Assembly: GCA_028285755.1 (NCBI GenBank)
Contig: JANQOQ010000008.1
Location: 257,399 to 321,398 of the forward strand
Reading direction: 5' to 3'
Origin: Puniceicoccaceae bacterium
GTDB taxonomy: Bacteria > Verrucomicrobiota > Verrucomicrobiia > Opitutales > JAFGAQ01
DNA length: 64,000 bases
Positions 53,443-59,362 of the stretch are shown in pieces. Position 1 is the stretch's first letter. Every line of letters begins with the position of its first letter. The notes below the pieces were generated by a model. It saw only the letters and a list, made by a program, of their open reading frames with translations. It did no database searches and had not been told where the DNA came from. Position numbers and translations under genes: made by a program.

Positions 53443-53539
53443 GATCTTAAGTGTATTCTTTGAACATCAAAATCGTTTGCATGTCGATGATTCTCATGAA
53501 ATGAATCCATATTGGAGTTTTTGGTTAACAATTTATGGT

Positions 53540-54442
53540 ATGTATCGACGGCTACTAGGCATAGTATTTTTACTATCGGGCTTAGTTTATACAAACTTTG
53601 CTCAAACTGAGGTTCCTGATGAAATATTGGATTTTCATCGCCCTGAAGCCTGGGCAATGAAATATTTCAATGCTGCGTCATTACCCCTTAAAAGCGGATT
53701 GCTTGACCACGTGGAATCGGGAAAATGGGCTTTGGATCTTGAAATTGCGCATGTGCCCCGGTTGGATCAACGTCAACGCACAGTTGGCTTTAATGGATTT
53801 AAAGAGGAAGATCTTAATAAAACTCATGTATTTGCGAGGCCGGCAATACGATACGGATTGCCTGAAGGCTTTAATCTAAGCATAAACTACCTGCCGCCGA
53901 TTGAGGTGTTTGGCGTTAAGCCTGAGTTTGCGGGCGTTGCCTTGGATAAGCGTCTAATGTTCGGAAAGCGTTGGCAGGCGGCCCTGCGTGCATTTACTCA
54001 ATATGGTCGCGTTGAGGGAGCTTTTACCTGTTCCTCTGATATCTTTGAGTTTGATGGCGATTTTGACAGCAATCCCTTTGGGTGCGATGAAAATTCAAAT
54101 GATGTATTCCGTTCTTTGACGTATGGAATGCAGGCTCTGCTTGGGCGCTCGTTAACGGATAGTGGGGATACCTTTGCTTATATCTCTGCATCGTGGCAAG
54201 ATTCGGATTTGACCTTTGAGATCGATGCGGTCACAGGAGGTTTTCGCGATAACCGGCGGCAGGTGACGGATGGTGTAGGCTATAGTATAGGTGCCGGCGT
54301 AGAGCGCCAATGGTCTGAAAAATGGCGGGCCGCAGTCTCACTTTTTTATTTTCCACTGAAAATAAGGCGTCCTGAGGATATAGATCCCCAAAATGATGAT
54401 CTTTTACAATTGAGGGTGCAGATGAGTTATGCTCTTTTTTAA
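53540..54442 (+). CDS. Exported protein, probably outer-membrane beta-barrel type
   Basis: A 300-residue protein starting MYRRLLGIVFLLSGLVY with a signal peptide (cleavage near NFAQ). The mature part is rich in aromatic residues and alternating strands (FNLSINYLPPIEVFGVKPEF, WRAAVSLFYFPLKI) and ends LQLRVQMSYALF with a terminal Phe, as in outer-membrane barrels. No named family was recognised. A longer in-frame start at 53501 (13 more residues) is possible; still earlier starts run antisense into the channel gene and lack a signal peptide. It ends six bases before the methyltransferase and may be co-transcribed with the polyketide cluster. Confidence 0.7.
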   Translation: MYRRLLGIVFLLSGLVYTNFAQTEVPDEILDFHRPEAWAMKYFNAASLPLKSGLLDHVESGKWALDLEIAHVPRLDQRQRTVGFNGFKEEDLNKTHVFARPAIRYGLPEGFNLSINYLPPIEVFGVKPEFAGVALDKRLMFGKRWQAALRAFTQYGRVEGAFTCSSDIFEFDGDFDSNPFGCDENSNDVFRSLTYGMQALLGRSLTDSGDTFAYISASWQDSDLTFEIDAVTGGFRDNRRQVTDGVGYSIGAGVERQWSEKWRAAVSLFYFPLKIRRPEDIDPQNDDLLQLRVQMSYALF

Positions 54443-54448
54443 CGATTG

Positions 54449-55090
54449 ATGATGTCCCGAACGGTCAGCCCTGAAATTCTTGATTCCCTTGAGCCGGATG
54501 ACCCCCGGGCGATTCGCAACCGAAGGGAAATCAACCGGCTGAATCGTATGATGGGCAATCATCAGTGGCTGCTAAATAGCTTGCAAGAGCTTGTTCCGGA
54601 GGGAAGTCAGATCATTGATCTGGGTGCAGGCGATATCACTTTCTATGAGCATATTAAAGGGCAACCAATATTGTACAGTGCCTTGGATCGTGTAAAACCT
54701 GGACCGTCAATTCCTCAGGGAATGCAGTGGATTACATGCAATATTGAATCTTTTGAGGGCTGGGAGGCATACAACGTTATAACTGCAAATCTATTTTTAC
54801 ATCAACTTACGGATGAGGCATTGGGTAAGCTGGGCTCGATTTGGAATAAAACTGCTGACATTATGATATTTAATGAACCTTTAAGGCACCCTTTTCATCG
54901 GATGATAGCACCAGCATTTCTGAAGTTTGGCGGTTATGGATTGGTGACTCAGCACGATGGTTTGGTAAGTATCGAAGCGGGTTTTCGGGGAGGGGAGCTG
55001 CCCGGATTGTTGGGGTTGGGTGAAAACTGGAAAATCGAAGAACATCAAACCCTGCGGGGTTCTTATCGCATGATTGCTACGAGAAAATGA
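54449..55090 (+). CDS. Class I SAM-dependent methyltransferase (polyketide cluster)
   Basis: A protein of about 213 residues. The SAM motif is GSQIIDLGAGDITFYEH, followed by NVITANLFLHQLTDEALGKL and a C-terminal sheet (SYRMIATRK). Its TGA overlaps the ATG of the FAD oxidoreductase, so it is in the same operon as the type III polyketide synthase. Likely role: methylation of a resorcinol or pyrone product; C- or O-methylation cannot be told from sequence. Either of two adjacent ATG codons, or a TTG before them, could be the start. Confidence 0.85.
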   Translation: MMSRTVSPEILDSLEPDDPRAIRNRREINRLNRMMGNHQWLLNSLQELVPEGSQIIDLGAGDITFYEHIKGQPILYSALDRVKPGPSIPQGMQWITCNIESFEGWEAYNVITANLFLHQLTDEALGKLGSIWNKTADIMIFNEPLRHPFHRMIAPAFLKFGGYGLVTQHDGLVSIEAGFRGGELPGLLGLGENWKIEEHQTLRGSYRMIATRK

Positions 55091-56112
55091 GTAAACCCAT
55101 TAACATTGTCGGTGGGGGTGTGGCTGGGCTGAGCCTGGGGATCGCGCTGAGGAATCAAGACGTCCCGGTCACACTCTATGAGGCTTTGAGCTACCCGCGG
55201 CATCGGGTATGCGGAGAGTTTATCTGTGGAGTGAGTGATGCTACCCTGGAAAACCTGGGTATTAAAAAGCTGTTGGCAGATTGTGGCCGATTGCTGGATA
55301 CCGCCTGGTATCGGGGGAATGCGCATGTGGGCACTTTTCAACTGCCCAAGCCGGCAATAGCAATCTCGCGTTATGCGATGGATCAACGGTTGGCTGATCA
55401 GTTTGTGGCACTGGGGGGTAATCTGCGCACAAACGAACGCGTATCAGAAGAAGTATTTTCCAACAAAGGTTGGGTGCGAGCTTCGGGGCGGCGAAAGTCT
55501 AATAAGCGAGAGTGGATTGGTCTGAAAGCGCACTTTACGGGGTTGGAAACGACCGAGGATCTGGAGCTCCATATTGGCAGCGCCGGCTACGTTGGGATGT
55601 CCAAAGTCGAGAATGGATGTACGAATGTGAGCGGATTGTTTAAGCTCAATAAAAACTGCAAGGGGCAGAAGCGGGAGTTGCTCTTGAGCTATTTGCGAGC
55701 TTCGGGTTTGGATTCACTCGCGGATCGTCTGGCAGTCGCAGATATGGATGCCGAGAGTTTCTGCGGGGTGACCGCACTCGATTTTAAGCGATACTTTAAT
55801 AGTGCGGACGAGTTTTGTCTGGGGGATGCTCAGGGGATGATCTGCCCTTACACCGGCAATGGAATGTCGATTGCGCTTGAGTCGGCAGAGCTCGCGACTG
55901 AACCGCTTATGCGGTATGCTGAGGGTGTGCTTAATTGGACTCAGGCCATTCGCGAATACAATCGTGAGGCATCGCATAAATTTGCAGGACGATTGCGGGC
56001 TTCGACTCAGTTGCACCCCTTTATCTATCAAAAACCCTTCAATCAATTGTCTGAAGGATTGGTGAAATTAAATCTGTTGCCCTTTCGTTTAATTTATCAA
56101 CTAACTCATTAA
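55087..56112 (+). CDS. FAD-dependent oxidoreductase (geranylgeranyl-reductase-like, polyketide cluster)
   Basis: A 341-residue group A flavoprotein. The N-terminus is INIVGGGVAGLSLGIALRNQ followed by SYPRHRVCGEFICG. A second flavin motif is GDAQGMICPYTGNGMSIALE (DG-type). This fold includes aromatic hydroxylases and geranylgeranyl reductases. It overlaps the methyltransferase by 4 bases and is followed at 12 bases by the type III PKS. A hydroxylase acting on an alkylresorcinol, as in srs-type operons, is the working inference. Confidence 0.85.
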   Translation: MSKPINIVGGGVAGLSLGIALRNQDVPVTLYEALSYPRHRVCGEFICGVSDATLENLGIKKLLADCGRLLDTAWYRGNAHVGTFQLPKPAIAISRYAMDQRLADQFVALGGNLRTNERVSEEVFSNKGWVRASGRRKSNKREWIGLKAHFTGLETTEDLELHIGSAGYVGMSKVENGCTNVSGLFKLNKNCKGQKRELLLSYLRASGLDSLADRLAVADMDAESFCGVTALDFKRYFNSADEFCLGDAQGMICPYTGNGMSIALESAELATEPLMRYAEGVLNWTQAIREYNREASHKFAGRLRASTQLHPFIYQKPFNQLSEGLVKLNLLPFRLIYQLTH

Positions 56113-56124
56113 ACTGCAGCTACT

Positions 56125-57150
56125 TTGAATTTACTGGCATATTCCAACCGGGTTCCTCAGGCGTCCTACACTCAACGTGAGTGTTGGGAGATATTTACCC
56201 AATCGAATGCATACGATTTAGTGAATGATCGTTCTCGTATGTTGATGGAAAAGGTGCTCCATAGTGAACACGGTATCGATAAGCGGCACTTTGCGCATGA
56301 GGATATCGGCTCGCTCTATGCCAATGATGCGGAGAGTCTTTACCGGCTATTTGAGCATCATGCTCCCAGACTGGCGGCTGTTGCGGTCAATGAGGCTCTT
56401 GAAAAGGCGGGCCTTGCTGTAGATTCGCTCGATGCGATCATGGTATGCACCTGTACAGGATATCTTTGCCCGGGTATATCGAGCTATGTAGCTGAACAGT
56501 TGGGCATGCGGCGGGATGCTTACCTGCAGGATATCGTGGGCCTGGGCTGTGGGGCACTCGTTCCAACCCTGAGATCTGCATACGACTTTTTAAAGGGTGA
56601 AAAGAACAGGCATGTGGCGGTCGTCGCCGTGGAAATCTGCTCTGCAGCTTTTTACATTGATAATGATCCGGGGGTATTGATCAGCCTTTGCCTGTTTGGG
56701 GATGGCTGCTCGGCAAGCATCTGGAGCTCGGATGATTTAGGCGCAAAGGGGAGATTGGATGCGTTTGATACGGTGCACTATCCAGAAAACCGGGATCAGC
56801 TACGTTTTGAAAATAAAGGGGGTAAGCTGAGGAATCGCCTGCATCTTACCGTGCCGGTCATTTCCAGCCGCGCCGTTGAGGAGCTCTTTCGTAAAAATGA
56901 GGCGCTTGGCTTTGACGGGATTATTTCGCACGGCGGTGGGCGGGATGTGCTCGCTGCGATTGAGCGGCGCCTGCCGGATTACCCCCTGCAACCGAGCTGG
57001 AATACACTTGCGGACTTTGGAAATATGAGCAGCCCATCGGTGTTTTTTGGCTTGGCGGATTATCTGGAGAATGGATCAGCCGGAAATCGGCTTTGGTTAA
57101 CATCCTTTGGTGCGGGCTTTGCCTGCCATGGTTGCCGTTTCCAGCGCTAG
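56125..57150 (+). CDS. Type III polyketide synthase (chalcone/stilbene/alkylresorcinol synthase family)
   Basis: A 341-residue thiolase-fold enzyme starting with TTG. The Cys-His-Asn triad is Cys142 in DIVGLGCGALVPTLRSAYDF, His269 in IISHGGGRDV, and Asn300 in ADFGNMSSPSVFFGLADYL. CTCTGYLCPGISSYVAEQLG is also family-typical. Type III PKSs iterate malonyl-CoA onto a starter without an ACP, giving resorcinols, pyrones or naphthalenes; starter and ring pattern cannot be read here. With the neighbouring methyltransferase and FAD oxidoreductase the set resembles Streptomyces srsABC, which makes methylated phenolic lipids. Confidence 0.9.
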   Translation: MNLLAYSNRVPQASYTQRECWEIFTQSNAYDLVNDRSRMLMEKVLHSEHGIDKRHFAHEDIGSLYANDAESLYRLFEHHAPRLAAVAVNEALEKAGLAVDSLDAIMVCTCTGYLCPGISSYVAEQLGMRRDAYLQDIVGLGCGALVPTLRSAYDFLKGEKNRHVAVVAVEICSAAFYIDNDPGVLISLCLFGDGCSASIWSSDDLGAKGRLDAFDTVHYPENRDQLRFENKGGKLRNRLHLTVPVISSRAVEELFRKNEALGFDGIISHGGGRDVLAAIERRLPDYPLQPSWNTLADFGNMSSPSVFFGLADYLENGSAGNRLWLTSFGAGFACHGCRFQR

Positions 57151-57228: not shown

Positions 57229-58662
57229 ATGCCCAATACATTAATACTCCTGCTACTCTTACTTCTGAACGTTACCCTGTTCGCTGGACCCAAGCCAAAC
57301 ATCATCTACATTATGGCGGATGATCTGGGATGGGGAGATCTCAGTATGAACGGGCAGATGGCGTTTGATACTCCAAATATTGATCGACTCGCGCAGGAGG
57401 GCATCTCATTTACGAATCACTATACCGGGGCTACGGTCTGCGCGCCCTCTCGTGCAGCATTTATGACGGGTAAGCACACGGGGCATTGTTCGGTGCGAGG
57501 GAATGCGCCCGCACAACTGCTACTCGATGAGGAAGTGACGGTTGCAGAGATATTCAAGCAGGCAGGCTACGTGACCGGCGCCATTGGTAAATGGGGCATC
57601 GGGCACCCCCCACCTCCAAATGACCCCGAGCGTAACGGATTCGACTTTTTCTATGGCTACATCAACATGTGGCATGCCCACAATTTTTATCCCGAGTTCC
57701 TTTACCGCAATGGGATCAAGGAGCGATTGCCGGGCAATCAATTGGCCGATATCAAGTTTGAGAACTTGGATGATACTAAAGAGGGTGCCGGCGTAGCTGA
57801 AATCAAAGAGACCTACGTGCACGATTTGTTTGACCAGGAAGCGCTACAATTCATTGAGCGCCATCAGGATGAGCCCTTCTTTCTCTACATGGCCTACAAT
57901 GTGCCGCATACTAATAATGAAGCGGGCTACCACTCTGGCGATGGAATGGAAGTCGAGGACTACGGAGAATTTGCGGATAAATACTGGCCCAATCCTGAGA
58001 AAGGCTTTGCACAGATGATTCGCAACCTGGATAACTCCGTAGGAATGATCATCGATAAACTCAAGGCCTTGGGATTGGATGATAACACGCTGGTGATTTT
58101 TTCTTCCGATAATGGACCCCATGAGGAAGGTGGGCACATCGCGGAGTTTTTTAATAGCAACGGTCATCTACGCGGCACCAAGCGCGATTTATATGACGGA
58201 GGTATAAAGACTCCTTTGCTCGCCCGCTGGCCGGCAAAAATTCAACCGGGAACGGAGAGCGACCACTTGTCTGCATTTTGGGATTTTCTGCCTACGGTTT
58301 GTGAGATTACGGGTGTTGAGGTTCCGGAAGGGATTGATGGCATCTCGCTGTTACCGACATTAAAGGGCCAATTAAATAAGCAGAAGAAGCACAAGTATCT
58401 GTATTGGGAGTTTTACGAACTCGGTGGCAGGCAAGCAGTTGTGGCCGGACACTTTAAGGCTGTTAAGCTAAATGTGCGCACCGCTAATCCAAAGCCAACG
58501 GAGCTTTACGATTTACGACTGAACCCCGAGGAACGCCCGGATGTTGCCGATCTCTATCCTGAAAAAGTGAAGGAGCTTGAAGCATACATCGAAGAAGCGC
58601 ACGAGCCAGTGAGCTTTATGTCGCTCTTTGAGTCGGAGGTGGATGCGGAGACCCGGTTTTAG
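57229..58662 (+). CDS. Arylsulfatase A-type sulfatase, exported
   Basis: A 477-residue sulfatase with a signal peptide (about 19 residues). Metal ligands are in YIMADDLGWGDLSMNG, and the formylglycine precursor Cys71 in VCAPSRAAFMTGKHTGHCS (C-x-P-S-R). SSDNGPHEEGG and YDGGIKTPLLARWP are later active-site elements. It is a different subfamily from the sulfatase at 29118-30998. The stop TAG overlaps that of the convergent START-like gene. Substrate unknown. Confidence 0.93.
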   Translation: MPNTLILLLLLLLNVTLFAGPKPNIIYIMADDLGWGDLSMNGQMAFDTPNIDRLAQEGISFTNHYTGATVCAPSRAAFMTGKHTGHCSVRGNAPAQLLLDEEVTVAEIFKQAGYVTGAIGKWGIGHPPPPNDPERNGFDFFYGYINMWHAHNFYPEFLYRNGIKERLPGNQLADIKFENLDDTKEGAGVAEIKETYVHDLFDQEALQFIERHQDEPFFLYMAYNVPHTNNEAGYHSGDGMEVEDYGEFADKYWPNPEKGFAQMIRNLDNSVGMIIDKLKALGLDDNTLVIFSSDNGPHEEGGHIAEFFNSNGHLRGTKRDLYDGGIKTPLLARWPAKIQPGTESDHLSAFWDFLPTVCEITGVEVPEGIDGISLLPTLKGQLNKQKKHKYLYWEFYELGGRQAVVAGHFKAVKLNVRTANPKPTELYDLRLNPEERPDVADLYPEKVKELEAYIEEAHEPVSFMSLFESEVDAETRF

Positions 58663-59312
58663 TTGCCGAATTCCTGAACCAGGAATTGTTCGAAATTGCG
58701 GATATTCTTAACCGGGAGTTTCTGGATATATCGCCGTGCCAGACTTGCGGGGACTCCGTCACAAATTTCCAGGGAGATTTTATAAACGACATCCGTCTCC
58801 TTGCCATCGATGCATATGAGGCTCCACTCGCCTTTCATATCTACCTGTTCTCTTTTGGGATGATAGTTGAAGTTTTCATCTACAAAGCTCTTGAAAGTGT
58901 ACCCGATCGCACGATCCTGAACCCCCATTTTTTCAAAGGCCAGCAGGCATTCGCGATCTCTTAAGGGCCAGGGTGCATCCATGGCATTATAAAATGTGCC
59001 GACGGTTTCCGGCTCGATATTGACCGAATGCACTTCGATCATATTGGGCACCCATTCGATGTATTTTTCGATATTATCAAGAATAGCTTCACAATCGCTT
59101 ATCGGGAACGGAACTCGCGTACGTGCCCAATAGAAAGACTCCTGTTCCTGGTTCGCATAAGTATATACGTCGAGACCTTGTATGGTCTTAACCAGCTCAG
59201 AATCTTCAGAAACGATTTGCTGTTTAAAGCTCTGGAGAGTGTTTACCGATGCTGCCAACGCGAGCCCCGAGACACAGAAAATTCCTATTAATGTTTTACG
59301 AACAATTAACAT
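58659..59312 (-). CDS. Exported START/SRPBCC-fold lipid-binding protein
   Basis: A protein of about 217 residues with a signal peptide (MLIVRKTLIGIFCVSGLALA), which fixes the start at the internal ATG rather than the one 11 codons upstream. The mature part resembles the StAR-related START fold (FYWARTRVPFPISDCEAIL, WPLRDRECLLAFEKM, WSLICIDGKETDVVYKI). START domains bind lipids or hydrophobic ligands in a deep cavity. It follows the sulfatase tail to tail. Confidence 0.8.
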   Translation of the reverse strand: MLIVRKTLIGIFCVSGLALAASVNTLQSFKQQIVSEDSELVKTIQGLDVYTYANQEQESFYWARTRVPFPISDCEAILDNIEKYIEWVPNMIEVHSVNIEPETVGTFYNAMDAPWPLRDRECLLAFEKMGVQDRAIGYTFKSFVDENFNYHPKREQVDMKGEWSLICIDGKETDVVYKISLEICDGVPASLARRYIQKLPVKNIRNFEQFLVQEFGN

Positions 59313-59362
59313 ACGAGCGGATATGCGGCAGTGAGTAAGCAGCAAGGCTAATAGTTAAATCA

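Follow-up and report, generated by a model that had tools for sequence, protein, structure and literature searches.

A methyltransferase, flavoenzyme and type III polyketide synthase operon with an apparently deeply divergent synthase in a verrucomicrobial genome

The window investigated here, a stretch of 64,000 nucleotides from a Puniceicoccaceae bacterium (Verrucomicrobiota), carries three tightly packed genes predicted to encode a methyltransferase (MT), a flavoprotein and a type III polyketide synthase (PKS), which raises the question of what such a unit makes and to which of the known polyketide operons it is related. The genes, and two neighbours considered as possible partners, are as follows.

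54449–55090, + strand: class-I SAM methyltransferase, 213 amino acids (motif IIDLGAGD, weak PRK06202 match, AF2 model, conserved position)
55087–56112, + strand: FAD-dependent oxidoreductase of the geranylgeranyl-reductase/UbiH-like superfamily, 341 amino acids (Pfam, NCBIfam, co-occurrence)
56125–57150, + strand: type III polyketide synthase of a deep-branching clade, 341 amino acids (Pfam, PDB matches, catalytic triad, trees)
53501–54442, + strand: exported barrel-like protein, upstream and separated from the MT gene by 6 bases (weak OMP_b-brl match, E=0.024, below the cut-off)
58659–59345, − strand: exported protein, candidate accessory (no Pfam match; found beside the operon in sister genus G003 too, 34% identity)

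The three-gene unit and its conservation

The MT gene runs from an ATG at 54449 to a stop codon ending at 55090 and overlaps the FAD gene by four bases (ATGA), the latter starting with the ATG at 55087. A gap of 12 bases separates the FAD gene from the PKS gene, which starts with a TTG codon at 56125. The open reading frames, the overlap, the gap and a Cys142-His269-Asn300 triad had all been described in an initial annotation of this DNA, and are confirmed by the ORF coordinates and by alignments.

Conservation of the unit was assessed in a sample of 387 genomes of the phylum, 68 of which encode the PKS (53 from the same class as the window and 15 from other classes). An ortholog of the FAD enzyme was found in 49 of the 53 same-class PKS genomes and in 0 of the remaining 334, and lies directly upstream of the PKS gene on the same strand in 45 same-class PKS genomes; as these genomes are related, the Fisher value for the co-occurrence overstates their independence. 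The MT gene is conserved upstream of the FAD-PKS pair. A search of 72,556 plasmids with the FAD protein (threshold 1e-8) returned only three matches, all adjoining type III PKS genes. The distances of the three proteins correlate across 17 loci (r 0.82–0.84; 0 of 2000 permutations), a pattern predicted by adjacency and by vertical descent alike, and in some families the PKS gene is separate from those of the MT and the FAD enzyme. Because the MT-FAD-PKS arrangement recurs across the class it is more than chance, and the trio is a real unit; the co-occurrence that the initial annotation had expected of the neighbours is strongly borne out for the MT and the FAD enzyme across PKS-bearing genomes.

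The barrel-like protein had been suggested to help place or move the product in the envelope. The gene exists, but no homolog lies beside the operon in any other locus compared; it was rejected as a part of the pathway and is probably an incidental neighbour. A downstream sulfatase was rejected on the same finding. The protein encoded at 58659–59345 was discarded as a general partner, recurring only in sister genus G003 among the loci compared; its membership in the system is uncertain, and its sequence gives the impression of possibly a START-like lipid-binding fold. The gene has the same convergent orientation to the PKS gene in G003.

Phylogeny and active site of the synthase

In Pfam the PKS scored 51 bits with FAE1_CUT1_RppA and 45 bits with Chal_sti_synt_N, both above cut-off, and 20 bits with the C-terminal domain, short of the 27 bits required. 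Type III PKSs headed the matches in a PDB sequence search, the best being the pyrone synthase Pks11, and ArsC was absent among the PDB matches listed. The best 50 hits in a fold search with an AlphaFold model (pLDDT 77.5, from a shallow alignment) were likewise all type III PKSs, with a poor superposition (rmsd ~14 Å). Cys142, His269 and Asn300 were invariant across the deep clade described below in two alignments, and the FG-A-G loop was kept throughout it, while FabH of the same genome or family, sitting on a long branch, was excluded from the type III PKSs with a support of 100/100. The protein, of thiolase fold and KAS III-like with a Cys-His-Asn triad, is thus a type III PKS.

Trees were constructed from 58 proteins and rooted on FabH, with Paludisphaera borealis standing in for the planctomycetes and with HidC, SrsA and ArsB/C outside the set. 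The main split placed a canonical type III PKS side (support 98/91 and 98/90), holding DpgA, RppA, Pks11 and the ICMT-linked enzymes, Pks18, and planctomycete and other MT/FAD-linked PKSs, opposite a deep verrucomicrobial side (91/93 and 93/90), and it persisted after the two longest branches were taken out. The deep clade, which contains the window PKS, comprises Verrucomicrobiota and a few Betaproteobacteria and lies outside the sampled DpgA, RppA, Pks11/ICMT-linked, Pks18 and planctomycete groups. A single clade of all MT/FAD-linked PKSs was rejected by the AU test (p 0.016), a result that is support rather than proof because the group had been defined only once the tree was known and because the branches are long. 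Sequence identities follow the same pattern: the window PKS shares 27% with the Paludisphaera PKS, 25–31% with those canonical type III PKSs from plasmids that were compared, 40% with a protein encoded on a Caballeronia plasmid and 42–58% with verrucomicrobial proteins of its own class. The initial annotation had looked to phylogeny for a placement among or outside the resorcinol synthases; the window PKS instead groups with no sampled characterized clade, neither resorcinol nor other, and appears from its sequence to be a deeply divergent, so far uncharacterized branch of the type III PKS family.

The best NCBIfam match of the PKS was DpgA, which would fit an enzyme making a short or DpgA-like aromatic of the 3,5-dihydroxyphenylacetyl type and no lipid. 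The score of 98 bits is, however, far under the cut-off of 425 bits (NF042429), DpgA lies across the main split of the tree (98/91), and no dpgB, dpgC or dpgD partners were seen beside the operon. Identity with DpgA was rejected, and we regard a product of this kind as very unlikely.

The active site bears on a second alternative, in which the PKS forms an alkyl-alpha-pyrone by lactonization, as do Pks11, Pks18 and ArsC, the MT O-methylates it and the FAD enzyme modifies it, giving neither resorcinol nor quinone. Residue 266 of the window PKS (56914–56934), three before the catalytic histidine, is aliphatic, and every verrucomicrobial PKS of the main subclade from the window's class has Ile, Val, Leu or Met there; elsewhere Trp is nearly universal, most of the sampled type III PKSs having it. 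The choice between resorcinol and pyrone in ArsB and ArsC hinges on single residues (PMC6274091). This precedent, the aliphatic residue and Pks11 as the best match in both sequence and fold speak for a pyrone, and the substitution also counts against a resorcinol-type ring. Pks11 and Pks18 nevertheless keep the Trp, and the residue therefore marks no pyrone synthases and was rejected as a marker of either outcome. As the partner genes discussed below also point away from it, a pyrone product is considered unlikely.

Relation to known operons and roles of the tailoring enzymes

SrsB of the srsABC operon is an ICMT-type membrane methyltransferase. The MT of the window had no significant Pfam match of its own, and its AlphaFold model (pLDDT 84.5) matches SAM methyltransferases, with a predicted class-I fold in place of the ICMT type; a relative elsewhere carries a methyltransferase annotation. 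Both srsABC and pkqABC share with the window a type III PKS, a methyltransferase and an oxidoreductase, and their products are alkylresorcinol-derived quinones, but the gene order is PKS-MT-oxidoreductase and both the PKS lineage and the MT class differ. The polyketide quinones of pkqABC are reported to act as an alternate means of electron transport in both Mycobacterium and Streptomyces (PMC9927152). The parallel with srsABC drawn by the initial annotation was accordingly rejected as the closest model: the window MT is a soluble class-I SAM enzyme, and the ICMT-linked plasmid PKSs form a separate clade.

Closer parallels are found in two other groups. Among planctomycetes, Milke et al. 2024 (PMC10896814) found 58 of 96 type III PKS genes at the end of an mtr-fdo-t3pks operon, and in cyanobacteria the genes of hidABC encode, in turn, a methyltransferase, an oxidoreductase and a type III PKS (Larsen et al. 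2021, PMC8086630; citing Costa et al. 2019), an order identical to that of the window. The planctomycete operons share with the window the three genes, their order, short overlaps or gaps, the general enzyme classes and the PVC superphylum, and one such operon with 4-base overlaps was found on a Paludisphaera borealis plasmid. The relationship is nonetheless remote: identities to the Paludisphaera proteins are 26% for the FAD enzyme and 27% for the PKS, the two MTs gave no significant match, and the PKSs belong to different clades. Milke et al. (PMC10896814) place HidC among the PKSs of planctomycetes; the window PKS is separate from the Paludisphaera PKS, HidC itself being outside our tree. 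As the order is published for hidABC of Cyanobium and for the planctomycete loci, neither it nor the PVC setting is new; the initial annotation had noted the order and phylum as differences from srsABC. Type III PKS clusters had also been flagged earlier in Verrucomicrobiota by antiSMASH, without analysis. In its organization, the operon belongs to the MT-FAD-type III PKS operons already known for phenolic lipids.

By analogy with these systems, the MT would be the counterpart of HidA and planctomycete mtr, and the FAD enzyme that of HidB and fdo. The PKSs of G. maris, R. baltica and S. maiorica yielded 5-alkylresorcinols (C15/C17) in C. glutamicum, and G. maris mtr and fdo together led to the addition of a methyl group, probably on carbon, with no oxidation product identified for fdo (PMC10896814). 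The MT of the window likely methylates the polyketide ring, and we propose the FAD enzyme as a ring hydroxylase. The latter matches Rossmann/FAD families, with NAD_binding_8 over the Pfam cut-off, and its best NCBIfam match is GG-red-SF (53 bits, below the cut-off of 158.8). This proximity to geranylgeranyl reductases counts against hydroxylation; the protein could be a reductase of the alkyl or alkenyl chain, the product then being a methylated saturated phenolic lipid without ring oxidation, which would also suit the missing fdo product of G. maris. Since sister cassettes have UbiH/MhpA-type monooxygenases or U32 proteins, both linked to hydroxylation, in the place of the FAD enzyme, we consider a chain reductase improbable.

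Sister cassettes, proposed product and respiration

Within the phylum but beyond the window's class, deep-clade PKSs are accompanied by one of two gene sets. The first (e.g. loci L075 and L078) consists of a UbiH/MhpA-type FAD monooxygenase (PF01494, 172 bits) and a UbiE-type methyltransferase (TIGR01934, 161.9 against a curated cut-off of 158.35). A second MT is encoded in L075; it belongs to the PRK06202 family, which the window MT matches weakly (27 bits, versus 124–162 bits for MTs of the other-class cassettes). The second (L065, L067, L071, L072, L074 and L076) pairs an MT with a peptidase-U32 protein, a single chain of about 400 residues whose match to PF01136 is weak (24 bits over 64 residues, just over the cut-off). 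UbiU and UbiV, which are U32 superfamily proteins too, contain 4Fe-4S clusters, and ubiquinone synthesis depends on them for its O2-independent hydroxylation (PMC6747719). The U32 protein resembles them in its superfamily and conserved cysteines, and is sited where sister cassettes have an O2-dependent hydroxylase; it occurs in related genomes and is absent from the window. Its function is only inferred, because the cysteine spacing is unlike either the UbiU or the UbiV motif and an NCBIfam search gave no UbiU/UbiV match, which together with the weak Pfam match weighs against the main reading. Members of this U32 subfamily turned up in 6 of the 308 genomes searched, each time with a type III PKS gene as a neighbour. 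U32-MT-type III PKS operons were observed at L071 8886–10851, L072 6615–8646, L076 4693–6649 and L147/L149.

The U32-MT cassette also occurs with a PKS of the canonical lineage (46–48% identity to Deinococcus) in genomes G149 and G169, where the U32 protein and the MT are ~70% and 54–60% identical to those accompanying deep-clade PKSs, and a UbiH-type FAD gene stands with a canonical PKS in G194. As one U32-MT cassette carries either lineage, both probably do the same job and make the same kind of ring. This exchange, and partners common to quinone pathways (FAD hydroxylase, UbiE and U32), argue against the pyrone alternative. On the Caballeronia plasmid pSBC2-3 (L044 7971–12678), genes for a deep-clade PKS, an MT and an FAD enzyme are followed by those for an acyl carrier protein (ACP) and a beta-ketoacyl synthase, a set that suggests an ACP-bound starter.

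The reading we favour, and hold to be moderately probable, is that the operon product is a ring-methylated, ring-hydroxylated alkylresorcinol-type lipid or its quinone, in keeping with the compact operon and likely product of the initial annotation. The PKS would load a fatty acyl starter (as CoA or ACP thioester) and extend it with malonyl-CoA to an alkylresorcinol-type ring, the class-I MT would methylate the ring on carbon or oxygen, and the flavoenzyme would hydroxylate it with O2, giving a hydroxylated alkyl phenol able to oxidize to an alkyl-benzoquinone. Starter, ring type, methylation site, FAD hydroxylation, quinone end product and physiological role are all steps that we infer, and the ring type is insecure because the PKS is only 27% identical to the one planctomycete PKS compared and lies outside the characterized clades sampled. 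Gene content and order shared with the planctomycete operons and hidABC support this product by analogy, with the polyketide quinones of pkqABC as a further precedent, and the intact triad, the co-occurrence of the FAD gene, the correlated distances of the three proteins, the exchange of oxidative genes and of PKS lineages, and the cydA adjacency described next appear to support it at the sequence level.

Genes for cydA, cydB and a rubredoxin-like-domain protein adjoin the PKS cassette at three loci from two families only (L071 13344–16001, L075 1763–4610 and L078 2772–5610). Menaquinone synthesis was searched for with one marker per route (MenD and MqnA/D) in draft, incomplete and related genomes. 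Neither MenD over the cut-off nor a strong MqnA was found in 11 of the 15 other-class deep-PKS genomes (G196 has a weak partial match), three of which (G166, G242 and G329) have cydA, in G242 4–6 kb from the PKS cassette. Among cydA-positive genomes of other classes, the markers were missing from 3 of 6 with the deep PKS versus 3 of 27 without it, which at these small numbers is suggestive at most, and full complementarity of menaquinone genes and type III PKS among cydA genomes was not found. G016 and G056 have a cytochrome bd match and no MenD, MqnA or type III PKS match at the thresholds used; a second cydA match in G016 is weak.

These absences, together with the pkq precedent (PMC9927152), would fit a dedicated respiratory quinone replacing menaquinone across the whole clade. 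The window genome, however, encodes MenD (424 bits), and MenD, MqnA or a split match resembling MenD was present in the rest of the same-class genomes tested; with the few genomes and incomplete assemblies behind the 3/6 versus 3/27 comparison, so general a role seems quite unlikely. In the window organism, where cydA also gave no match, a respiratory-quinone role is weakened; any such role would be accessory because MenD is present, and the operon there most likely supplies an accessory lipid with a redox or membrane function. A broader model is that the deep verrucomicrobial PKS founds a polyketide-quinone pathway with interchangeable FAD (O2-dependent) and U32 (O2-independent, UbiU/V-like) ring hydroxylases, the quinone feeding cytochrome bd in some members without detected menaquinone genes; we put this forward as a doubtful, speculative extension.

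The operon adds a large, widely conserved and chemically uncharacterized type III PKS branch to phenolic-lipid biosynthesis, and the exchange of FAD and U32 genes offers a direct way of probing what the FAD enzyme does in the planctomycete and hierridin operons. Should the product serve respiration in some carriers, it would extend non-isoprenoid respiratory quinones beyond the Actinomycetes.
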